Source: an uncultured Bacilli bacterium
GTDB lineage: Bacteria; Bacillota_I; Bacilli_A; RF39; UBA660
Reading direction: 5' to 3'
NCBI GenBank assembly: GCA_949439935.1
Contig: CASRZA010000004.1
Span: 1-36,871, forward strand
Length of the DNA stretch: 36,871 nt
The first letter of the stretch is position 1. Every line of letters starts with the position of its first letter. Of the stretch, positions 312-34,231 are shown in pieces. Position numbers and translations under genes: made by a program. The notes beneath the pieces were generated by a model. The model had not been told where the DNA came from, made no database searches, and saw only the letters and a program-made list of their open reading frames with translations.

Positions 312-1595
312 ATGAAAAAACTAAAGATTATAGCGATCGTCTTTACGATGATGTTCGTTCATTTACTAAATGTAGATGCAGCTTCATTTGGAATGACGTC
401 TTCCAAAAACCAAGTTTCACCGAATGGAACTTTTACAGTTAAAGTAGGTGGAGAATGTATAGGAAGAGTAGACTTAAAAGTGAGCAACGGAAGCCTCTCA
501 TCTTCTAGTATATGGGTAGAACAAGGTTATATAACCGTAACAGTCACGGCAGGGGCCTCTGGAAACGTGACAGTCACAGCGACACCAGTAACAGGTTTTT
601 CTGATCCCGATGCAAATTTATACAACCCAGGTTCTAGAAGCGTTACGGTAAAGATCGCTGAACCTACTACAACCAAGCCTGGAACGGTGACGACTACAAA
701 GAAACCTAACAACAATGGTACTACTTTAAAAAAATCCCAAGACAACGATTTAGCCAGTCTAACTGTCAGTGAAGGTACACTGTCACCAGCATTCGATCCT
801 GAAATTACAGAATATACTTTAAACTTACCGAAAGATAATAAAGAACTTACTATTAAGGCTTCTACTAAAGACTCAAAAGCTAAAATAAATGGTGCAGGTA
901 AAGTCACTTTAAAATTCGGTCAAAATGTCATCGAAGTCGTCGTTACAGCAGAAAACGGTTCAAAAAAGACGTATCGTATAAAAGCATATGTCGATGAATC
1001 TCCAGACGTTTTCTTAGACTATCTAGATGGAAAAATAGGAATCGTTAAAAACGCCGAAGGAATTCCTGCTTTAGAAGGATTCGAATCAAAAGAACACGAG
1101 ATCGATGGAAAAAAGATAACTATTTTCACTAAAGATAAGCTGTCTTTAATATATGGTTTAAACGGCGAAGAAAGAAACTATTACCTTTTCGACAAAGAGA
1201 AAAATACGATCATAAATCTCTTGACTCCCGTCACTATAAAAGACCACATCCTCTTCGTGATAGATAAAAAGATCGAAGAAGATTATCTAAAAAAAGAGAC
1301 AGTCGCAAGGGGCGACGAAAAATTCGCATGTTACAAATTCGACCGAAGCGATGCGAACTACTGTCTTTTGACAGCTATAGATAAAGAAGGAAATTACAAA
1401 GAATATCTGTACGAGACTACAGAAGAAACGTTCCAACTATATCCAAAATTCTTACTCGATTATAGTGGTGATGAAAAATCCAAAAATGATATTATATTAT
1501 ACGTTCTAGGCGGTCTTCTAGGTGTATCTTTCATCGTTATTATAGTTATGGTATCGAATACGAAAAAGGGGAACAAAAATGAAAAAAATAAATAA
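312..1595 (+). CDS. Secreted, C-terminally membrane-anchored beta-sandwich protein (Ig/cohesin-like N-terminal domain plus cadherin-like beta-sandwich domain)
   Basis: N-terminal signal peptide; 'LASLTVSEGTLSPAFDPEITEYTLNLP...ITVKAS'-type cadherin-like beta-sandwich (PF12733-like) segment; C-terminal hydrophobic helix YVLGGLLGVSFIVIIVMV followed by basic tail. Confidence 0.75.
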   Translation: MKKLKIIAIVFTMMFVHLLNVDAASFGMTSSKNQVSPNGTFTVKVGGECIGRVDLKVSNGSLSSSSIWVEQGYITVTVTAGASGNVTVTATPVTGFSDPDANLYNPGSRSVTVKIAEPTTTKPGTVTTTKKPNNNGTTLKKSQDNDLASLTVSEGTLSPAFDPEITEYTLNLPKDNKELTIKASTKDSKAKINGAGKVTLKFGQNVIEVVVTAENGSKKTYRIKAYVDESPDVFLDYLDGKIGIVKNAEGIPALEGFESKEHEIDGKKITIFTKDKLSLIYGLNGEERNYYLFDKEKNTIINLLTPVTIKDHILFVIDKKIEEDYLKKETVARGDEKFACYKFDRSDANYCLLTAIDKEGNYKEYLYETTEETFQLYPKFLLDYSGDEKSKNDIILYVLGGLLGVSFIVIIVMVSNTKKGNKNEKNK

Positions 1596-4464
1596 GATTT
1601 TAACTTTAATTTTTGCTCTTTCCTTATTCTTCATACCGAGTTCGAGCTTTCAAGACCCACGAATAATCGATACGGCCATTTCGCATAAAGAATCCTTAAA
1701 CCAATTTAGGACAGCAGAAAAGAGAAATATAGAGAACATCGCGATATTTATCAGTTTCGATGGAGATGCGACAAAAGTACCACATCCGATCGACGATGAA
1801 CAGAGTATCAAAAATGCCGAAACGATCTTTAATTCGGACGACCTGTTCGACATGGTCGGACCAAATGGAATCGTCAAGGTGCCTTCTTTCAAAAAATATT
1901 ATGAAAAGCAAAGTTATGGTGCACTTTCGATCTCGACCAGTTTTCTTCCTAAAAAAGATGGCAAAGTAGTATCTTTCCAAGATCCTAATCCGATCGGTTA
2001 TTATCTAAAATATTCGACTGGCAATACTATAGGATACAGGGATAATGCCGAACTGTTAAAAAGAGAAACCGAACTAGTTGAGAACGCACTTGCTCATATC
2101 TCAAGCGAGATAACAAACCTAAACTTTACAGCAGACGACTTGGATACCGATAAAAACGGGTATATAGATGCCATTACTCTCATAGTAGAGACACAGAAAA
2201 ATATGCCTACCACTATATCGTGGAACGATCTTTTGTGGTCACACATGAGAGATAACGACGGTATACAGTCTTCACTGTTGGGCAAAAAAGTAAGATCATA
2301 TACTTTACTTCAAGCGTCCGATTATACCGAAGCCGCGGGATTGTTCTCTTTAAACAGAGGAACCTATGGAACTTTAGTACACGAATTTGGACATTCTTTG
2401 GGATATAAAGATCTCTATCGATATGGAAGTTCTACTTCAAAACCCGTAGGATTCTATGATATCATGGGTAGCTCGATCGGTTCTAATCCCCAAGATTTCC
2501 TGACATACTTCATAAGTGAATACGATGCTTCCACCGCGTGGCATACACCGATTCCGTCTATCGATAAAACGACTGAAAATATAACTTTATACAAACCGAA
2601 ATTTATCGATAAAGACGAGAAAAGAGCACTAAAACTGTTGATAGATGGTACTCCAGAACAATTCTTTGTAGTAGAATACTACGAAAAAAGAGATACCTTC
2701 AATACTTATACTGCCGACCAAAGTGGAATAATAATCTACAGAGTCAACGAAGATAATAAATACTTAGGAAGTTCAGATGACAGCAATGACGGTAAATATG
2801 ATCACATATATGTGTTTAGACCGGGTGAGACTAGTTTAGGAGCCGGACAAGGTAATTTGACACAAGCTACCTTGAATATGAATAGGCCTACGTTCGGTAA
2901 AGATTTAAACCTCGCAGACAAAACTTTCGACGGCGAAACGCTTTTCTTATCTAATGGATCAAATACTGGTATAAAGATAAATGTGACCGCTGAGACATCT
3001 GAATCGATCACTTTCACGGTTACATATCCATCACACGATGGGAGTGGAACCCAAAGCGACCCTTACTTAATCGGCGATGTCGACACTTTTGTTTATCTCA
3101 TGGGACTTAACACGAAGAATAAATTTTACAAATTGACATCTGACCTAGATTTTAAAGATGTCAAAAATTACCCCTTAATCGACTTTGAAGGCTCTTTAGA
3201 TGGAGATGGAAAAACTTTAAAAAATATCTCTTCCACTGACTCTGGAATATTCGACAATTTAGGAAATTTCGGTGCACATTCGACTATAGAGAATCTGAAC
3301 ATAGAGAATCTAACCGCCTATACAAAGGGCGGAAATCACTTAGGAGCTTTGGCAAATTATGCAAGTAATGTTACGATTAAAAACGTCCACATAAAAAACG
3401 GAACTGTTACGAATGAAGGAAACTCTATTAACTCGATCGTGTCGACAGGCGGTTTCATAGGAAGTGCAGACAACACTGTCGTAATCGAAGATTCTTCGAC
3501 AAAGATACATGTCAGTGCGAACCAGACAGTCGGAGGATTCTTAGGGATCAACATGGGCGCTAAAATAAAAGATTGCTTTGCCCAAGGATCTATAGAAAGC
3601 AAATTGAGAAAGGGTGGCTTTATAGGCTTACAAGCTATAACATCATCACCTTATATAGCGCCAGAAAACGCCTTCTTTGATTCTAGTGAAGATGAAAATT
3701 TAAAAGCAGTTGGTGGTTATGCACAAAACATGCACGATCTATCCATTTTAGATGAAAATTCGTTATCTAAAAACATAACAGCTATTTCACTTGGTAAGAA
3801 TCTCACAATTAAAGAAAATTCACATGCCAATGTTCCAATAAAAACGACTCCTAATAAAAACGTCACTTATGATGTCACGATAGAAAATAAAGACGTCGCA
3901 AGCTATCAAAATAAATTGTTACTGGGACTCAAAACAGGAACTACAAAAGTTTACATCGACGTTTTAGTAGGCAAAGGTCGCATGCGTCTAGAGACAAATA
4001 TAGTCGTCGAAAGAGGAGATGGATCTTTAAGTGAAAATGAATTTCTCGTTCTGTTAGGATTACACAAGAAAAATGACTTTGTCGTCGGATTCAATTTAAA
4101 CACGCCGATAAATGACATAAAGGACAAAATCTCCAATATAACAGGTACATCTTTAAAAAGCTTCACCGATTCGACAGGAACAGAACTGCAAGGCGGTATA
4201 ATCAGCACGGGTATGGTCTTCACGGTTACTATAGATAATACTGATTATACATATACGATCGTAATCAAAGGAGATGTAAATGGAGATGGTCTCATATATG
4301 CGACAGACTATGTCAAAATTAAAAATTACATCATGAACAAAGGCACTTTGACAGGCCCTTATGCGTTTGCTGCAGACATAGACGGCGACGGAAAAATATA
4401 TGCGACAGATTACGTCCAGATCAAAAATCACATCATGGGTAAAAAACCTATAGAACAAAAATAA
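1579..4464 (+). CDS. M6-family-like secreted metalloprotease with GLUG/beta-helix-like middle region and C-terminal dockerin-like repeats
   Basis: Signal peptide; HEFGHSLGYKDLYRYG zinc motif (HExxH near 2380-2394); two Ca-binding dockerin-type repeats GDVNGDGLIYATDYVKIKNYIM / ADIDGDGKIYATDYVQIKNHIMG at the C-terminus. Confidence 0.88.
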   Translation: MKKINKILTLIFALSLFFIPSSSFQDPRIIDTAISHKESLNQFRTAEKRNIENIAIFISFDGDATKVPHPIDDEQSIKNAETIFNSDDLFDMVGPNGIVKVPSFKKYYEKQSYGALSISTSFLPKKDGKVVSFQDPNPIGYYLKYSTGNTIGYRDNAELLKRETELVENALAHISSEITNLNFTADDLDTDKNGYIDAITLIVETQKNMPTTISWNDLLWSHMRDNDGIQSSLLGKKVRSYTLLQASDYTEAAGLFSLNRGTYGTLVHEFGHSLGYKDLYRYGSSTSKPVGFYDIMGSSIGSNPQDFLTYFISEYDASTAWHTPIPSIDKTTENITLYKPKFIDKDEKRALKLLIDGTPEQFFVVEYYEKRDTFNTYTADQSGIIIYRVNEDNKYLGSSDDSNDGKYDHIYVFRPGETSLGAGQGNLTQATLNMNRPTFGKDLNLADKTFDGETLFLSNGSNTGIKINVTAETSESITFTVTYPSHDGSGTQSDPYLIGDVDTFVYLMGLNTKNKFYKLTSDLDFKDVKNYPLIDFEGSLDGDGKTLKNISSTDSGIFDNLGNFGAHSTIENLNIENLTAYTKGGNHLGALANYASNVTIKNVHIKNGTVTNEGNSINSIVSTGGFIGSADNTVVIEDSSTKIHVSANQTVGGFLGINMGAKIKDCFAQGSIESKLRKGGFIGLQAITSSPYIAPENAFFDSSEDENLKAVGGYAQNMHDLSILDENSLSKNITAISLGKNLTIKENSHANVPIKTTPNKNVTYDVTIENKDVASYQNKLLLGLKTGTTKVYIDVLVGKGRMRLETNIVVERGDGSLSENEFLVLLGLHKKNDFVVGFNLNTPINDIKDKISNITGTSLKSFTDSTGTELQGGIISTGMVFTVTIDNTDYTYTIVIKGDVNGDGLIYATDYVKIKNYIMNKGTLTGPYAFAADIDGDGKIYATDYVQIKNHIMGKKPIEQK

Positions 4465-4511: not shown

Positions 4512-4540
4512 TTGAATAGACTTCTGATCCGTGATATAAT
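4512..4540 (+). promoter_or_regulatory. Sigma-70 type promoter of the nuclease-DnaB operon
   Basis: TTGAAT (4512-4517), 17-bp spacer, TATAAT (4535-4540), then RBS AGAGGTG before ATG 4563. Confidence 0.75.
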
Positions 4541-4562: not shown

Positions 4563-5786
4563 ATGTTCAAAGAGTTTTTCCAATACGACGAAAATATTAA
4601 CTATTTGAAAAAATACTATGATCTCGACAATTCTTTGAAAAGATATGGGATCGAACGTATGGAAATTAAACACAGTAATTTTCTGAGATGGGCTTTAAGT
4701 CCAAATAACAGCAAAAGCTTAGGCACATTCTCATTGAAATGGTTCATAAAGTTGATCCAAACAAAACTTAGTGCTAATAGACGATTAAAAAAAATAGACC
4801 TCGACCAGTCCTGTCTCGAGGAAATAGATATCTTACGAGAGAAAAAGAACATTGATCTCTTAATAACTTTCAAAATAGGTTCCGAATGCTTTTCTATAGT
4901 CATCGAAAATAAAATATTTGCCAATATTCATGGAAAGCAACTTTCAGCCTACAAAGAAAAAATAGGAACAATATATAAAGAGAAAGGATTAACGTTCGAT
5001 GAAGAACTCGTAGAATACATTTTTCTCTATACAGAGTTTAAAGAAGATGCTAACGACGAAATAGAAAAAGCCAAACACGAGGGTTATATACCACTAACAT
5101 ATCAAGAACTTTATGAAAGTGTCCTAAGCAAAATGGCAGAATATTCGTTAGATTATACATTTACGATTAACATATTAGATTACATTCATGGTCTAGCCAG
5201 CTACATAGTCGATGGTTATGGAACTATGATTACAACAAAACAAGATGCAGAGTGCCTTGAAAGAATATTTAAAAAAAATGAAATGAAAGATTTAATTATC
5301 TCTTTGAGAGATTCATCTACAGAGGCTTACAATTTTTACAGTGACCCAAAGAACAAAGCATTTATAACATTATGTTTTATAAAATATACAAGTTTACTTA
5401 ATAAAAAAGTACAACTTGATGAAAATGAATCTGAAATCAAAAAACATTTGAATGCTATCTTAAACAAACAAAGATATATGCTCACTGTGGAAAACAAAAC
5501 AGAGAATTTCAGGAGTATAAGAAAAATGCTCCTGTACATAATAATTGATTATTTTTATAAAGAGAAAAATTACTCGGTAGAAGATATAGAAAAAAGATTA
5601 AATTCTCTTTTTCCTTGGAAATTGATAATCTCAACCGATGAAGAAATTCAAAAATACAAATACTGGTATGAAAAGGTCATGATAAGTGAAAAAGAATATT
5701 ACGTCTTGACTAACTGGGCACCACAAGACTATGATGATTTCAAAGACACTATGAATTCTGCTAATTTAGGATTTAAAGTTGAATAG
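4563..5786 (+). CDS. PD-(D/E)XK nuclease superfamily protein (PDDEXK_4/PF14281-like)
   Basis: 'HSNFLRWALSP..' N-terminal signature and catalytic-type core NIDLLITFKIGSECFSIVIENKI (D...E-x-K). Confidence 0.75.
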   Translation: MFKEFFQYDENINYLKKYYDLDNSLKRYGIERMEIKHSNFLRWALSPNNSKSLGTFSLKWFIKLIQTKLSANRRLKKIDLDQSCLEEIDILREKKNIDLLITFKIGSECFSIVIENKIFANIHGKQLSAYKEKIGTIYKEKGLTFDEELVEYIFLYTEFKEDANDEIEKAKHEGYIPLTYQELYESVLSKMAEYSLDYTFTINILDYIHGLASYIVDGYGTMITTKQDAECLERIFKKNEMKDLIISLRDSSTEAYNFYSDPKNKAFITLCFIKYTSLLNKKVQLDENESEIKKHLNAILNKQRYMLTVENKTENFRSIRKMLLYIIIDYFYKEKNYSVEDIEKRLNSLFPWKLIISTDEEIQKYKYWYEKVMISEKEYYVLTNWAPQDYDDFKDTMNSANLGFKVE

Positions 5787-5800
5787 TAAAAGAGGATAAC

Positions 5801-6436
5801 ATGAAAGAGCAAGATTTAGAGAATATACTCGAAACATTAAGACAGAAACGCCCAGTTTTTGTTTCAGAAGCAGATTTTCAATTCGCCTTAGCGTGGTCGA
5901 TACAATCGAAATTCAAAAATGCAGAGATAAGATTAGAATATCCACCAGAATACGATCCGAACGTTCACATCGATATCCTAGTAAAAATAGGGGTTGATTG
6001 GTATCCGATAGAATTAAAATACAAAACGAGAAAATGCGAAAAGGAAATCGACGATGAAACTTACTTTTTAAAAGAGCACGGCGCGACAGATGTGAACTGT
6101 TACAGGTACTTAAAAGACATCGAAAGGATACAGAGATTCAAAAAAGTACCTCAATTCAAAAGAGGTTTTACCATATTTTTGACGAATGATTTGAGATATA
6201 CTGATAGTCCAAAAAAGGAAGACTCTATTTATAAAGACTTTTCTCTAAAAGAAGGTTTAATAAAAGAGGGCGTTCTCGCTTGGGATAAACGAGCTAGCAA
6301 AGGCACCATGAAGGGCTGTGAGAAACCTTTAACAATGGATTCTAAATACTCGGTTTACTGGAAGATGTACAGTCAGCTCGATGACAGCAAAACTGGAACG
6401 TTCAAGTATTTAATTAACACTATAGAAAAGGAGTAA
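5801..6436 (+). CDS. Second putative PD-(D/E)XK restriction-endonuclease-like protein
   Basis: VHIDILVKIGVDWYPIELKYKTRK (D...ExK) core; starts 15 bp downstream of the previous nuclease gene. Confidence 0.6.
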   Translation: MKEQDLENILETLRQKRPVFVSEADFQFALAWSIQSKFKNAEIRLEYPPEYDPNVHIDILVKIGVDWYPIELKYKTRKCEKEIDDETYFLKEHGATDVNCYRYLKDIERIQRFKKVPQFKRGFTIFLTNDLRYTDSPKKEDSIYKDFSLKEGLIKEGVLAWDKRASKGTMKGCEKPLTMDSKYSVYWKMYSQLDDSKTGTFKYLINTIEKE

Positions 6437-6442
6437 TTAAAA

Positions 6443-7237
6443 ATGACTATACTAAAAAAAATAAGCGAAATTCAAATGACTGAAGAGATGAACAAGTCAT
6501 ATAAACTCGGTTTCGATCAGCTAGATACACTTGTAGGCAAAGTAAAAAGTGGGACGATAATTACTATAGGTGCAAGACCAGCGATGGGGAAATCCACATT
6601 TCTAAATCGCATAGCTTTGAATCTTTTATCTGAGTATAATGAGCCTATCTTATACGTTGGACTCGAAACCAATAAAGAAAGATTAGCGTTACAGCTCGCA
6701 TGTTTGGCAAAAGATGTTTCATTTAGAGATGTCTTTAATGACGATGAAAAATCAAAAAAGATTTTAGATGAATTTAAAGAAAAGAATTACGAACTGTTCA
6801 TTACAGATGATTGTATAAATATCGACGACCTTGAAAGTTTATTAAAAGAAAATAGACAGATAAGATTTCTCTTTATTGATTATATTCAGCTACTCGGAGA
6901 TGACAATGCAAATAATAGCATAGAACGAGTAGGTAATGTACTTAATAAAATTAAAAAACTAGCTAATGAATATAATCTCGTCGTCATCCTGCTTTCTCAA
7001 CTGTCGAGAAATGTCGAATATAGATTAGAAAAAAAACCACAGTTGACAGATTTAAAAAGCTGTGGAAACATAGAAAACGTATCTGACATCGTAATATTTC
7101 TCTATAGAGAATCTTATTACTCGAAGGAAGCTAAAAATGATGCGACAGAAATAATCGTTTCCAAAAACAGATATGGTTCAGTTGGCAGTGCCTTTCTCGA
7201 CTATGACAAAATGACTGGTCGCTTCTCAGATTATTGA
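6443..7237 (+). CDS. DnaB-like replicative helicase C-terminal (RecA-fold) domain protein lacking the DnaB N-terminal domain
   Basis: Walker A GARPAMGKST, Walker B FLFIDYIQLL, H4-like SQLSRNVEYRLEKKPQLTDLKSCGNIENVSDIVIFLYR; only 264 aa; 6 bp after the preceding ORF. Confidence 0.85.
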   Translation: MTILKKISEIQMTEEMNKSYKLGFDQLDTLVGKVKSGTIITIGARPAMGKSTFLNRIALNLLSEYNEPILYVGLETNKERLALQLACLAKDVSFRDVFNDDEKSKKILDEFKEKNYELFITDDCINIDDLESLLKENRQIRFLFIDYIQLLGDDNANNSIERVGNVLNKIKKLANEYNLVVILLSQLSRNVEYRLEKKPQLTDLKSCGNIENVSDIVIFLYRESYYSKEAKNDATEIIVSKNRYGSVGSAFLDYDKMTGRFSDY

Positions 7238-7249
7238 TAAAAGAAAACG

Positions 7250-7362
7250 AATATGAATTGCATATCACGGGCGTTTCGCAGTGAATATTAAAATGTTACT
7301 TTATACATATCTAACGATATGTAAACCATTATGAATGGTTGTTTAAATGTTGGAATTCAAAA
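7250..7362 (+). ncRNA. Candidate retron msr-msd non-coding RNA
   Basis: Directly upstream of the retron RT: imperfect a1/a2-like pairing TGAATTGCA (7254-7262) with TGGAATTCA (7351-7359), 8/9 pairs; msr-like stem ATATCAC..GTGAATAT with inner GCG-TTT-CGC (7262-7288); perfect hairpins TACATATC-TAAC-GATATGTA (7304-7323) and AACCATT-ATG-AATGGTT (7324-7340). Confidence 0.6.
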
Positions 7363-7376
7363 GGTGGTAGTCAAAA

Positions 7377-8399
7377 ATGAATAGTTATGAAAATCTAGTC
7401 TGTCATATTTTAAATATTAGATATGACACATTGAAAAGAGTCTTAGGTGAACACAATTACAGGACGTTCAAAGTCCCTAAGAAAAGTGGAGGATATAGAA
7501 ATATTTCGGCTCCACACATATGTCTAAAGAACGTTCAAGAGAGTTTAGCGCAGTACATTGATAAGAAATACGAGTTTTTGGATTGTCAATATGGCTTTAT
7601 AAAGAATCGAAGCATCGTAGATAATGCAGTTTTGCATAAGAAGGCCAAATACATACTAAATATCGATTTAAAAAACTTTTTTCCTTCTATTAATTTTGGA
7701 AGAGTTCGGGGAATTTTTATGGCAAAGCCGTTTAATTTTCCTAAAGAGGTTGCAACCATATTAGCAAAAATAAGCTGTTATCACAACGAACTTCCACAGG
7801 GATCTCCTTGTTCTCCATCTCTTTCGAATATAGTTTGTTATACATTAGATCAAAAAATGATGAATATGAGTGGTCAATATGGATTTACCTATTCGCGATA
7901 CGCCGATGACATTACTATCTCAAGCGATAGACCTTTTCCAAAAGAGATAGTCACGCGTACGAAAGACAACATCGTCATCGTCGGAAAAAAATTAAGACAT
8001 ATAATCGAAAGTCAAGGATTCATTATCAATGAAGATAAAACAAACTATAGTTGGAACAACGAACGCAAAGAAGTGACTGGACTGATCGTCAACGAAAAAG
8101 TAAATGTCAAAAAGATATATGTAAAACAGTTGAGGGCTCTTCTAAATAATATCGATAAAGAAGGACTTTATTTCACAGCAAAAAAATATTTTAAATGTGA
8201 AAACATCAGCTTAAATGCTTCCCAAAGAAAGAAGTTAATAAAAAAACTTCGAAATATCGTCGAGGGAAGATTAAACTTTTTATCGATGGTTCGAGGCGCG
8301 AACGATTTAGTTTACCAAAAATATTTGGAAAAATATTTGGATATATTGCATAAAGAAAATCTGTATTCACCTAGCTTGAGAAAAAAATTAAAAATTTGA
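7377..8399 (+). CDS. Retron-type reverse transcriptase
   Basis: 340 aa; retron NAxxH motif (NAVLH, 7623-7637), LPQGSPCSPSLSN, catalytic YSRYADDITIS (YADD 7899-7910), VTG motif (EVTGLIVN, 8073-8081). Confidence 0.92.
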   Translation: MNSYENLVCHILNIRYDTLKRVLGEHNYRTFKVPKKSGGYRNISAPHICLKNVQESLAQYIDKKYEFLDCQYGFIKNRSIVDNAVLHKKAKYILNIDLKNFFPSINFGRVRGIFMAKPFNFPKEVATILAKISCYHNELPQGSPCSPSLSNIVCYTLDQKMMNMSGQYGFTYSRYADDITISSDRPFPKEIVTRTKDNIVIVGKKLRHIIESQGFIINEDKTNYSWNNERKEVTGLIVNEKVNVKKIYVKQLRALLNNIDKEGLYFTAKKYFKCENISLNASQRKKLIKKLRNIVEGRLNFLSMVRGANDLVYQKYLEKYLDILHKENLYSPSLRKKLKI

Positions 8400-28678: not shown

Positions 28679-31600
28679 ATGGCGATGAAAATATATCTAT
28701 ACTTAAAAAATAAAATCTTGTCTTTCACGATACCTCAAAAAGTATCAGGTAACTTCAATTTCGATGAAGATCCTATGGAAGAATCTAAACTCATCAACAT
28801 CGAAGCTCTCGACTCAGAATGGCATATCTATTCGACCTCCGAAGTAAGCGTCATGTCAAACGGCATGGTGCAAGGTCGGATACGTCTCGAAAAAAACAAT
28901 TACTATGTCATCAAAAGAGCAGGGATAGAATATTTGATATTCGTGACAGATACTTTTGACCCCAGTTTTTTGCCATATAGCTTCACTAAAGAAATAAATC
29001 TAGTCATAGGAAACGACTCCTCTTGCAACGTCAAATTCAATTGTCCTTATGTAAAAGGTATCGCCGGTAAAATAAGGATGGAAGGAAACTATATAATGCT
29101 AGATACGGGAACTTGTCCTATCTATCTAAACAACGCAGTAGTAGAACCTAACACGACTAGTCACATCGTCAAAAGTGGCGATCAATTAAACGTCTATGGT
29201 CTTAAGATAATGATATTAAACGGATTTCTTCTTCTAAATAATCCTAGCAACTGGATGAGTTGCAATTTCAGTTCGGCCCATCTCTCGTCTTATCAATTAT
29301 CCTATGGAAATGAGCCACAAGATTTAGAAATAAAAGATAAAGAATTATATTCAAAAGAACAGTACTTTTCTAAAGCACCTAGGATTAGACGAATAATAAA
29401 GACTAAAGAGATCGATTTGAGTCCACCGCCGCGCCAAGAAGGCGAGCAAGAGATGCCTCTTTTATTGACGGTTGGTCCTATGCTTACGATGGGATTAGTC
29501 TCTGGAATGATGCTTCTGAACACACTCTCGAGAGTGTCGGCAGGCACGGCTACCTTTCAGCAAGCCCTGCCTTCGATCGTTTCTTCGATCGCGATGCTCG
29601 CTTCGACGATCCTCTGGCCGACGCTAACTAGAATGTTCAACAAGGTGATAAAGGCACGGCGAAAAAGAGAGCTTATAAATAAATATACAAAATACTTAAA
29701 TAAGAAAAGAGAAGAACTCGAGACAGAACAGAAACTTCAAAAAGAGATTCTCTTTGAAAATTTGATCCCGATTTCCGAATGCCTGAACATCATTCAGACG
29801 GCTCGCGCGAGATTTTGGGATAGGCGAGTCGACCAAAACGACTTCTTACAAGTTCGCGTAGGTGTAGGAAACGAGCTTTTAGACGTCAAAATAAACTATC
29901 CAAAAGAAGGTTTTACGATCGACGAAGACGATTTAAAAAGAGAAGCAGACCTTTTAGTGAAAGAATTTAAATACATTCCCGACGTACCGATCAGTTATTC
30001 GCTATTTCAAAATAAAATCACCGCGATCATGGGTGAAAACGAGAAATGCCATAACATGCTCAACAACATAATTTTACAACTTTTAACTTTTTACAGTTAC
30101 GAAGATATAAAGTTAGTTGTCATAACGACACCGTCGAACGAAGGCAAACTGGCATACACTCGCTACTTGAAGCATTGTTTTTCGAACGACCTACAGATGA
30201 GATTTTTCTCTTCGTCGGTAGAAGGTGCAAAAAACTTATGTGACTATCTCAACATGGAACTTCAAAACAGGATACAATTATCCGAGGGTGAAACTAGGCT
30301 ATTTAAACCTTACTATGTCATCATCACTGACAATTACTCACAGATAAGAAGACACCAATTCGCCAAGACTTTAACCGAGATGGACGCAAACGTAGGGTTC
30401 AGCCTATTGATACTCGAAAAACAGCTGAGTAAGCTACCTAGCAAATGTGCAAATTTCATCAACCTAGACACCAACTCTTCGACTATACTTAAAAACTCGT
30501 TCGAATCGCAAGAGATGGTGCCATTTAAAGATGAAGTAAACGGTAACATAGACATGCTTGCAGTCACGAGATTGCTCTCTAACATTCCGATCGAATTCGA
30601 AGAAGGAAACAAACAACTGCCAGATACGGTCACATTCCTCGAGATGGAACGCGTAGGAAAAGTAGAACAACTTAACATTTTAAATAGATGGGATACGAAC
30701 GATTCGACGACCAGTCTTAGAGCCGAAATCGGTTTAGACGAAGAGGGCAGTATGATGTACTTAGACCTCCATGAAAAATACCATGGACCTCACGGACTGA
30801 TCGCCGGTATGACGGGGTCAGGAAAATCCGAATTCATCATCACGTACATTTTATCGATGGCTGTCAACTATAGCCCAGACGACGTCGCGTTCATCTTGAT
30901 CGACTACAAAGGTGGAGGCCTCGCCGGTGCGTTCGAAAACAAAGCGACAGGAATCTCTTTACCACACTTGGCAGGAACGATCACAAACTTGGATAAAGCA
31001 GAGATGGATCGTACTCTCGTCAGTATAGACAGTGAAATAAAACGTCGTCAAAAAATGTTCAACGAAGCTCGCGATCGCCTAGGCGAAAGCACGATCGATA
31101 TCTACAAATATCAAAGATATTTCAAAGAAGGAAGGCTTGCCGAACCGGTCCCACACCTTTTTATCATCTGTGACGAGTTCGCAGAGTTAAAAAGCCAACA
31201 GCCAGACTTTATGGACAACCTGATAAGCGTCGCTCGTATAGGACGTAGCTTAGGAGTCCACCTGATACTGGCAACCCAAAAACCGAGTGGAGTAGTAAAC
31301 GACCAAATATGGTCGAACACAAAATTCAGAGTCTGTCTTAAAGTTCAAGATGCTCAAGACAGTAAAGAGATGTTAAAACGTCCAGAAGCCGCGAGCATTA
31401 AGCAGACGGGACGTTTCTACCTACAAGTAGGATATGACGAATACTTCGCCCTAGGACAATCTGCCTGGTGTGGAGCAAAGTATTATCCGAGTGAGAAGAT
31501 AGTCAAACAGGTCGACAAAAGTGTCAACTTTATAGACGACAATGGAAACACGATCAAAAGTATCCAATCGGGTACCAACATCAAAATCGAAGCTCAAGGA

Positions 31601-33265
31601 GAACAGATCGCTGCCATAATGAAAAATATCATCGAAGTATCAAATATGACGAAAAAAAGAGCTCGTCGTCTGTGGTTAAACGCCATCGATCCTATCATCT
31701 TAGTCGACAACCTCGAGAAAAAATACAACTTTAAGCCAGTTGCTTACGACGTCCGTGCTATCATAGGAGAATACGATGCACCGGAAAGACAAGAACAGAA
31801 CTTGCTTACATACGATTTAGCAAAAGAAGGAAATACTGTAATATACGGAAACGACGAAATTGAAAGAGAGAACATCCTAAATGCCATTCTCTATTCGATA
31901 TGTAAAACCCACAGTTCCAAAGAGATTAACATCTATGCGATAGACTACGGTTCAGAGCAACTTAGAATATTCAGTGGATTCCCTCAAGTCGGAGGCATGG
32001 TCTATCTAGGTGACGACGAAGGACTAAAAAATTTATTCAAACTAATTATGGAAGAAGTCAAATCGCGCAAGAAAAAGTTGATCCCATTCGGTGGAACACT
32101 AGAAGCATACAATTCAAGAAACGAGAAAAAACTTCCACAGATCATGTTCGTCATAAACAATTACGAAGGACTCACCGAAATCTATAATACTATCTATGAA
32201 GACATTTCGTCGATCGCGAGAGAATGTGAACGATACGGAATAACTTTCTTGATCACTTGCAATTCTACAGCGTCGCTCGGTCGTCGAGTATCACAAGCGT
32301 TTAATAACAAATATGCACTTCACCTCGCAGATTCATCCGACTATTATGGAGTTTTCAACACCAAATCGAAGACTCGACCTCGCGATATTCAAGGAAGAGG
32401 TCTGGCCTCTACAGACGGCATACACGAATTCCAAACGGCATCTATAGTTCCAGAAGAAATGAACTTGAACGAATATATCTACCAAGTGTCAGAAAAGATC
32501 AAAAACTTGGACAGCACTTCTGCTAGAGCTATACCTGCACTTCCAGAAAGGGTTACTCTTGACTTAGTTGCAAAAGATATCACGTCGTTAAATAAAGTTC
32601 CTATAGGTATTTCGAAAGAATCTTTAGAGACAGTAAAATACGATTTTACAGCCTATGCGGCGACGACTATCGCATCTAACAAATTGTCGAATATCGACAA
32701 CTTTATGGATTCTCTCGTAGATGTACTCATGAGAATAAATGGACTCACTGTCTTCTTCGTAGATACGATGCAATCGCTGCCGAGCGTCAAAGACAAAGTC
32801 TACGACAACAGAAAAGTTAGCTACTTCGATTCAGCCTTCGATGAATGTTTAGATAAACTTATCGCGATCGAGGAAAATCCTGAAAATAAAAAATTCAACA
32901 TATTATATATTTTCTATGGTTTAGAAAAGCTTAAGTCGAAGGCAGATCCTGCGAAAATCGAAAAGTTATTCGGTTCGATTAAAACTACCGAGAATAGCAT
33001 GATGATAATGTGCGACGGTGCTAAGAACTTAAAATCGCTAGACTTAGACATGTGGTATTCTAAGATCAAAAATAATACCGACGGGTTATGGATAGGGCGA
33101 GGTTTAGGTGAACAACAGAGTTTTAGGATGACGAGGATAACAAAAGAGATGAGTGCCGATTATCCAAACAATTTCGGCTTCTACATATCTGAAAGTAATG
33201 CCGAACTCATAAAGCTTTTAGAGTTTAAGACTCTTTCAAAGGAGGGACAAAACGATGAAGAATAA
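28679..33265 (+). CDS. essC: Type VII secretion FtsK/SpoIIIE ATPase EssC
   Basis: 1528 aa; FHA-like N-terminus, TM pair, FtsK domain with Walker A GMTGSGKSEFI, HLFIICDEFAELK, later degenerate ATPase modules. Confidence 0.93.
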   Translation: MAMKIYLYLKNKILSFTIPQKVSGNFNFDEDPMEESKLINIEALDSEWHIYSTSEVSVMSNGMVQGRIRLEKNNYYVIKRAGIEYLIFVTDTFDPSFLPYSFTKEINLVIGNDSSCNVKFNCPYVKGIAGKIRMEGNYIMLDTGTCPIYLNNAVVEPNTTSHIVKSGDQLNVYGLKIMILNGFLLLNNPSNWMSCNFSSAHLSSYQLSYGNEPQDLEIKDKELYSKEQYFSKAPRIRRIIKTKEIDLSPPPRQEGEQEMPLLLTVGPMLTMGLVSGMMLLNTLSRVSAGTATFQQALPSIVSSIAMLASTILWPTLTRMFNKVIKARRKRELINKYTKYLNKKREELETEQKLQKEILFENLIPISECLNIIQTARARFWDRRVDQNDFLQVRVGVGNELLDVKINYPKEGFTIDEDDLKREADLLVKEFKYIPDVPISYSLFQNKITAIMGENEKCHNMLNNIILQLLTFYSYEDIKLVVITTPSNEGKLAYTRYLKHCFSNDLQMRFFSSSVEGAKNLCDYLNMELQNRIQLSEGETRLFKPYYVIITDNYSQIRRHQFAKTLTEMDANVGFSLLILEKQLSKLPSKCANFINLDTNSSTILKNSFESQEMVPFKDEVNGNIDMLAVTRLLSNIPIEFEEGNKQLPDTVTFLEMERVGKVEQLNILNRWDTNDSTTSLRAEIGLDEEGSMMYLDLHEKYHGPHGLIAGMTGSGKSEFIITYILSMAVNYSPDDVAFILIDYKGGGLAGAFENKATGISLPHLAGTITNLDKAEMDRTLVSIDSEIKRRQKMFNEARDRLGESTIDIYKYQRYFKEGRLAEPVPHLFIICDEFAELKSQQPDFMDNLISVARIGRSLGVHLILATQKPSGVVNDQIWSNTKFRVCLKVQDAQDSKEMLKRPEAASIKQTGRFYLQVGYDEYFALGQSAWCGAKYYPSEKIVKQVDKSVNFIDDNGNTIKSIQSGTNIKIEAQGEQIAAIMKNIIEVSNMTKKRARRLWLNAIDPIILVDNLEKKYNFKPVAYDVRAIIGEYDAPERQEQNLLTYDLAKEGNTVIYGNDEIERENILNAILYSICKTHSSKEINIYAIDYGSEQLRIFSGFPQVGGMVYLGDDEGLKNLFKLIMEEVKSRKKKLIPFGGTLEAYNSRNEKKLPQIMFVINNYEGLTEIYNTIYEDISSIARECERYGITFLITCNSTASLGRRVSQAFNNKYALHLADSSDYYGVFNTKSKTRPRDIQGRGLASTDGIHEFQTASIVPEEMNLNEYIYQVSEKIKNLDSTSARAIPALPERVTLDLVAKDITSLNKVPIGISKESLETVKYDFTAYAATTIASNKLSNIDNFMDSLVDVLMRINGLTVFFVDTMQSLPSVKDKVYDNRKVSYFDSAFDECLDKLIAIEENPENKKFNILYIFYGLEKLKSKADPAKIEKLFGSIKTTENSMMIMCDGAKNLKSLDLDMWYSKIKNNTDGLWIGRGLGEQQSFRMTRITKEMSADYPNNFGFYISESNAELIKLLEFKTLSKEGQNDEE

Positions 33266-33539
33266 CAAAGTGTTGGTCCGTTTGATCGTACCAGAACTCG
33301 ATTACGCTTTCGACGTCTTCATCCCGATAAATGAGATCATGTGGAAGGTCAAAAAACTCTTAGCGAAATCTATCTCTGACTTAACGGGCAGTTTTCTAGA
33401 CATAAATGCCGAATACACGCTCGTCAACAAAGTGACGAGTCAGCCTTATGACAACAACCAAATAATCGCAAATACGGATATCAGAAATGCGACAGAACTC
33501 ATCTTCTTAGCTGTCAGAAAGAACAATGTAGGACTCTAA
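33255..33539 (+). CDS. YukD/EsaB-like ubiquitin-fold protein
   Basis: 94 aa, directly after essC; VRLIVPELDYAFDVFIPINEIMWKVKKLLAKSI beta-grasp-like pattern. Confidence 0.75.
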   Translation: MKNNKVLVRLIVPELDYAFDVFIPINEIMWKVKKLLAKSISDLTGSFLDINAEYTLVNKVTSQPYDNNQIIANTDIRNATELIFLAVRKNNVGL

Positions 33540-34231
33540 TGACAAAAATGGGTTTATTCGGATTCGGAGGATCAGAAATGACAGGTTACAACTGCGAGCA
33601 AGTTAACGCTTTGAGAGATGTAATCAATAACACAGCTCAAGAAGCTGGAAGAAATATTGTAGAAAGGTTACACAGTGACATAATCGTTCCTATGTCGACG
33701 GTATGGTATGCTCCAGAAGCAGTTACTTTCTTTGAAGGATTTGCAGATATAGTAAAAGACTCTGGAACTAATATTACTCAAGCTTTCGATTTGTTTAGAG
33801 CAGCTATACAAGCAGCAGGTCAAAATTGGGCTGAAAACACTGGTGGACAAGCACCAGTGCTTGCAACACTTGAAGAGGTAATATTAACCTTAAACGTGTC
33901 TGACATTCAGCCAGAGAATGCTGGAAGTGTCCTCATAGACGAAAAACAAGCAACAAATATAGCCAACAAACTAGGTCAAGTCGAAGAGAACATCAAATCA
34001 GAATTACAGGCACTTGCCAACAATCTTGATGCAGAAAGCGCATTCATAGGTCACGGACAAGCTGATGCTTTACAAAAATGCTTTGTCAACATCAGTGGTG
34101 AAATTCATAAAATTTTCAAATATCTAACTGAAGGAGAAAAATCTCTACAAGGTCAAATCAATGCTGCTGTTACAAAATACCAAGAAGTTTCCAGTGGTAT
34201 TTCAAACTCTTTCAACAACAATAGCAATTAA
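33539..34231 (+). CDS. WXG100-like T7SS substrate, apparently two WXG100-like modules in one chain
   Basis: Helical protein; first half with VWYAPEAVTFFEGFADIV (W-x-x-x-A/E turn), second half DEKQATNIANKLGQVEENIKSEL...FIGHGQADALQKCFVNIS; alternative better RBS (GGAGG) start at 33578. Confidence 0.65.
   Translation: MTKMGLFGFGGSEMTGYNCEQVNALRDVINNTAQEAGRNIVERLHSDIIVPMSTVWYAPEAVTFFEGFADIVKDSGTNITQAFDLFRAAIQAAGQNWAENTGGQAPVLATLEEVILTLNVSDIQPENAGSVLIDEKQATNIANKLGQVEENIKSELQALANNLDAESAFIGHGQADALQKCFVNISGEIHKIFKYLTEGEKSLQGQINAAVTKYQEVSSGISNSFNNNSN

Follow-up and report, generated by a model that had tools for sequence, protein, structure and literature searches.

A putative two-hairpin retron RNA between a DnaB-like ATPase gene and an unfused reverse transcriptase gene in a gut bacterium

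Retrons are bacterial elements in which an RNA template gives rise to small DNAs, and in most of them the msd forms a single long hairpin, while their reverse transcriptases (RTs) carry the family motifs NAxxH and VTG; the msr of Eco1 folds into two stem-loops. Type XI retrons (RT-protease, designated RT-Protease_XI in PADLOC; L009-L011 in our set) have a fused protease, an a1/a2 stem of 9-10 bp or longer and a longer, AT-rich msd. In Retron-Eco2/Ec67 (type I-C, RT-Toprim), one msr stem-loop is followed by 9 nt of ssRb and 11 nt of RNA:DNA duplex, and the msd of 67 nt folds into one hairpin (PMC12405507). The msDNA of Retron-Eco8 (RT plus OLD nuclease) displays two DNA stem-loops (PMC12887533), and in the retrons studied the effectors are restrained by the RT-msDNA complex (PMC13158370).

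In this work, we analysed a retron whose host is a gut bacterium, within a window of 36,871 nucleotides (the whole stretch of DNA under analysis). The type XI RTs are 44-47% identical to the window RT, and a1, the UUGC branch site, the msr stem-loop and the a2 flank of their RNAs align with the window RNA; in contrast to type XI, the window has an unfused RT, a DnaB-like neighbour and a predicted msd of two compact hairpins. With Eco2 it has in common the single msr stem-loop and a 20-nt linker, and the predicted msd is of similar length, whereas the DNA of Eco2 forms a single long hairpin and its RT carries a Toprim RNase as a fused domain. The two DNA stem-loops of Eco8 resemble the two hairpins of the predicted window msd, but in Eco8 the msr also has two stem-loops and the effector is OLD, and the Eco8 RT is not the closest to that of the window. 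The window retron belongs to the I-C/XI/XII branch, in which it stands out by its unfused RT, a predicted msd of two compact hairpins and a putative DnaB-like partner.

The locus and its reverse transcriptase

Four closely spaced genes encode a PDDEXK_4 protein, a PD-(D/E)XK-like protein, a DnaB-like protein and, past the ncRNA, the RT. This run is preceded by a promoter-like site (4512-4540), although shuffled sequence contains such sites at least as often. The DnaB-like and RT genes are separated by a spacer of 139 nt in the window and of about 130 nt in the relatives. The features are the following:

4563-5786, + strand: gene of the PDDEXK_4 nuclease family, which opens the likely operon
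5801-6436, + strand: PD-(D/E)XK-like protein (IDI...IELKYK), candidate effector, separated by 6 bp from the DnaB-like gene that follows
6443-7237, + strand: ATPase of 264 aa consisting of a DnaB C-terminal domain only, Walker A/B intact, putative retron partner
7254-7259, + strand: a1 arm, UGAAUU, inner 5-6 bp of a1/a2
7260, + strand: G presumed to be the branch point, in the conserved UUGC and immediately 3' of a1
7266-7283, + strand: msr stem-loop, CAC/GTG plus a GCG-UUU-CGC tip (7271-7279), with an internal bulge
7284-7303, + strand: single-stranded linker of 20 nt, conserved, with a UAUUAAAnUGUUA core
7304-7323, + strand: msd hairpin 1, 8 bp, arms 7304-7311/7316-7323, TACATATC-TAAC-GATATGTA, loop UAAC
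7324-7340, + strand: msd hairpin 2, 7 bp, arms 7324-7330/7334-7340, AACCATT-ATG-AATGGTT, loop AUG
7343-7353, + strand: predicted template start, UUAAAUGUUGG, with AAAUGUURG common to type XI
7354-7359, + strand: a2 arm, AAUUCA, from alignment and covariation
7377-8399, + strand: retron RT of 340 aa without a fused effector, motifs YADD, NAxxH (83-87) and VTG (233-235)

Elsewhere in the window, inspection by eye recognised a type VII secretion set at 28679-34231 (a large EssC-like ATPase, a small ubiquitin-like protein and a WXG100/LXG-like protein) and, at 1579-4464, a secreted M6-like metalloprotease (HEFGHSLG) with dockerin-like repeats at its end.

By its sequence, the RT is an unfused retron RT of the I-C/XI/XII branch: the three motifs that mark the retron RT family (YADD, NAxxH and VTG) are all present, matches to retron profiles reach about 380 bits with types XI and XII and 336 bits with I-C, and the closest relative with a solved structure is Retron-Eco2/Ec67 (E 9e-72). 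The fusions that define each of these types were absent. The serine-protease domain of type XI was not found, the RT ending at 340 aa and giving no protease match; neither was the Toprim fusion of type I-C, nor the TIR fusion of type XII, for which the score was 337.9 bits against a cut-off of 600.

Relatives were collected by RT searches of 388 genomes of the same family and by one scan of a species-level genome collection, yielding seven RTs at 60-68% identity in three further lineages (L022/L023/L024/L025, L026 and L027/L028). YADD is replaced by YVDD in one relative, and NAxxH and VTG are invariant among the first four. Phylogenetically, the RTs linked to DnaB cluster together and separately from XI and I-C, a grouping that the tree supports moderately (80/82). 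In other families (L014-L017), we also observed longer RTs with a fused domain (528-591 aa, Toprim-like by eye), which have msr-like hairpins of their own upstream. A phage origin was considered as well and found no support, because no relatives emerged when viral contigs were scanned with the RT itself, with its alignment and with two RNA patterns; among phage records, only distant RTs were present, the best at 33% identity over full length and 44% over part.

Structure and conservation of the spacer RNA

An earlier note, made from the sequence by eye, had proposed the retron order a1 - msr hairpin - msd hairpins - a2 - RT for this spacer, and had named absent covariation in homologues as evidence against it. 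In all seven relatives the spacer RNA occupies the corresponding place, downstream of the DnaB-like gene and upstream of the RT, and five distinct RNAs, all from one bacterial family, could be aligned end to end. In this alignment covariation is present: nine pairs display changes on both sides with pairing kept (two in a1/a2, three in hairpin 1 and four in hairpin 2), and the covariation score of 0.239 exceeds the shuffled mean of 0.125 and was reached by none of 500 shuffles, while control structures slid by 1-3 columns scored at most 0.100. The proposed order holds in the four lineages, and its frame is common to type XI.

Every element named in the earlier note was present at the coordinates given there. 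The a1/a2-like pair of 7254-7262 with 7351-7359 is indeed paired at 8 of 9 positions, G7260 against G7353 being the sole mismatch, and the two perfect hairpins of 8 and 7 bp lie where they had been described, abutting without a gap (7323/7324); in 5000 dinucleotide shuffles of the spacer, a perfect hairpin of 7 bp or more never abutted one of 8 bp or more. From the msr-like stem drawn at 7262-7288, the part at 7266-7283 was supported, but the outer ATAT pairs are absent in some relatives. This stem-loop is invariant across the four lineages except for one loop letter and one bulge letter, and its sequence is among the best-kept parts of the spacer, an invariance that is neutral on its pairing. 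RNA folding of the spacer recovered the proposed structure without constraint (7250-7363, z = -2.5; 1 of 200 shuffles equally good). The Rfam search of the sequence gave no match above threshold.

Further, a covariance model, an approach the earlier note had recommended for upstream regions, was built from the five RNAs, with the type XI RNAs left out. Run against the 388 whole genomes of the family, it retrieved six sites, every one of them directly upstream of an RT; two of these belong to RT-protease (type XI) retrons, in the L009 and L010 genomes (E about 2e-6). A phylum-wide search returned the window itself and weak matches with no RT nearby, and nothing else; those in other families (E 0.008-0.03) were taken as chance. 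In the alignment, type XI has a1 and UUGC in common with the window RNA, as well as the msr stem-loop and the AAAUGUUAGAA stretch that leads into a2; the difference lies in the msd interior.

This common frame bears on the a1/a2 stem, which the earlier note had rightly called short. Its length is 5-6 bp in three lineages (6 bp in the window) and up to 10 bp in the fourth, L027/L028; in type XI it spans 9-10 bp in L009/L010 and forms a longer bulged stem in L011. Since the frame aligns with these type XI RNAs, the window a1/a2 reads as a shortened canonical stem. The structured ncRNA beside the RT is closed by a1/a2 inverted repeats, as is expected of a retron. The weakness of a1/a2 in the window might instead suggest an RNA that is bound by the RT and is no template for branched msDNA, the RT working otherwise, for instance as a defence-associated RT; we regard this as very improbable, given an RT that is squarely of the retron kind by profiles, motifs and closest solved structure, and a frame common to type XI retrons with a long a1/a2. 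The placement of the hairpins between two same-strand genes would also suit a terminator, an attenuator or a translation control element within the operon, but the same frame occurs upstream of fused type XI RTs, and this explanation is scarcely credible to us; as to a terminator, no U-run is present and none was called. Comparative sequence evidence thus supports the 7250-7363 spacer as a conserved retron ncRNA (msr-msd).

The presumed branching G and the predicted msDNA

G7260 of UUGC sits directly after a1 and is invariant in all relatives, type XI included. It corresponds in position to rG15 of Eco2 (PMC12405507), and by this analogy it is presumed to be the branching G, priming by its 2'-OH; the single mismatch of the 8/9 a1/a2 pair falls on this same base. 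The first copied base is probably 7353. The linker at 7284-7303 is 20 nt long, equal to the ssRb (9 nt) and RNA:DNA duplex (11 nt) of Eco2 combined, and by the same analogy the cDNA 3' end would lie near 7293, within the conserved linker. Because the one msr stem-loop and the 20-nt linker match the anatomy of Eco2, we infer a cDNA of ~61 nt, from about 7353 to about 7293, that would contain both hairpins. Folding of the predicted cDNA strand (7353-7293) gave two hairpins with z = -4.6, a value reached by none of 200 shuffles.

A product of this size would not be the very small DNA that the earlier note had anticipated, as the Eco2 msd has 67 nt (PMC12405507). Two covarying hairpins lie within the predicted msd, and a two-lobed msd has a precedent in Eco8 (PMC12887533).

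The assignment of hairpin 1 to the msr or to the msd rests on analogy, because type XI retrons likewise have a hairpin right after the msr stem. Hairpin 1 could accordingly be a second msr stem-loop, as the hairpin directly following the first msr stem in L009/L010 and the two msr stem-loops of Eco8 (PMC12887533) would suggest, so that copying would be confined to hairpin 2 and its flank and the cDNA, at about 30 nt, would be exceptionally short. This arrangement seems unlikely, as the abutting hairpins leave no single-stranded stop site between them, and the 20-nt linker before hairpin 1 matches the Eco2 stop region in length. The preferred reading is that both hairpins belong to the msd.

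The DnaB-like partner and the proposed mechanism

The protein encoded upstream of the ncRNA resembles the replicative helicase DnaB in its C-terminal RecA-like ATPase domain, its Walker A/B motifs and its fold, which matches solved DnaB, but the N-terminal domain is absent. Consistently with this, it is not a full-length DnaB by profile (180.6 bits against a cut-off of 385, with the C-terminal domain alone covered), and the host has a separate DnaB of 457 aa, encoded on another contig and 32% identical to it. In each relative, a gene for a DnaB C-terminal domain only (246-275 aa) lies directly upstream of the ncRNA and RT; it is the only other gene common to all lineages. From this gene order, the DnaB-like ATPase may be the partner or effector of the retron. 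As DnaB-like proteins are common on mobile elements, the retron could be real and the gene a chance or hitch-hiking neighbour with no role in it. We hold this to be improbable, since the gene is directly upstream of the ncRNA in 4/4 lineages at 47-53% identity while the other flanking genes differ, and since it has lost the N-terminal domain and retained the ATPase motifs.

The remaining neighbourhood is variable. The PDDEXK_4 gene was not found near the relatives, and the PD-(D/E)XK-like protein has a homologue (41% identity) in the L022-L025 clusters, at L024:1708-2340. As the model of this protein is poor (pLDDT 56) and its fold matches to HincII and Hjc are weak, its PD-(D/E)XK identity is graded as likely. 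Directly before the DnaB-like gene, OB-fold genes were observed at L024:3596-4084 (PolC-OB-like), L026:3403-4023 and L027:3740-4129, and shrunken Pol III alpha-like genes lie downstream of the RT at L024:6305-7309 and L027:6129-8126 (PF07733; PHP domain in L027), these two being roughly collinear at about 24% identity; neither an OB-fold gene nor a Pol III alpha-like gene is present in the window. L024:7310-7964 corresponds to a second DnaB C-terminal-like gene, which reads as a decaying copy because a stop breaks its frame before the Walker A region, and L027:1491-3671 encodes a kinase-phosphatase-RNA ligase (RNA repair) directly before the OB-DnaB-RT cluster.

With the integration of these findings, we consider it probable that the spacer is the msr-msd of a phage-defence retron of the I-C/XI/XII branch, with a two-hairpin msDNA of ~61 nt and the DnaB ATPase as partner. 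The a1/a2 stem would close the RNA and the RT would grip the UUU-tipped msr stem-loop; synthesis would start from the 2'-OH of G7260 and copy from about 7353 to about 7293, stopping in the conserved linker. The resulting msDNA of ~61 nt would fold into two short hairpins and remain joined to the msr RNA. The RT-msDNA complex would most likely bind and restrain the DnaB C-terminal ATPase, and in some lineages also a nuclease; the ATPase would be held back until a phage disturbs the complex, serving as the effector arm of phage defence, a role suggested by gene order.

A more tentative idea, which we rate as possible but doubtful, is that of a separate retron type assembled from replisome pieces, in which an unfused RT and a two-hairpin msDNA go together with the C-terminal ATPase of DnaB and, depending on the lineage, with the OB-fold and shrunken Pol III alpha-like proteins; such a retron might act as a decoy or sensor for fork-seizing phage proteins or as a fork-directed effector. 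No retron with DnaB as its partner was found in PADLOC or in the literature searched, a main retron classification paper lying outside its scope, and the novelty of the pairing is to be read as "not found" rather than as proven.

If these readings are true, the locus would add to the known retrons a type that is partnered by the ATPase of a replication helicase and makes a compact, two-lobed msDNA. Being small and natural, it would further serve as a test case for two questions, namely what share of the msd interior is required by a retron RT and how msDNA is coupled to different effectors, and its short, regular template may provide a scaffold for retron-made DNA tools.
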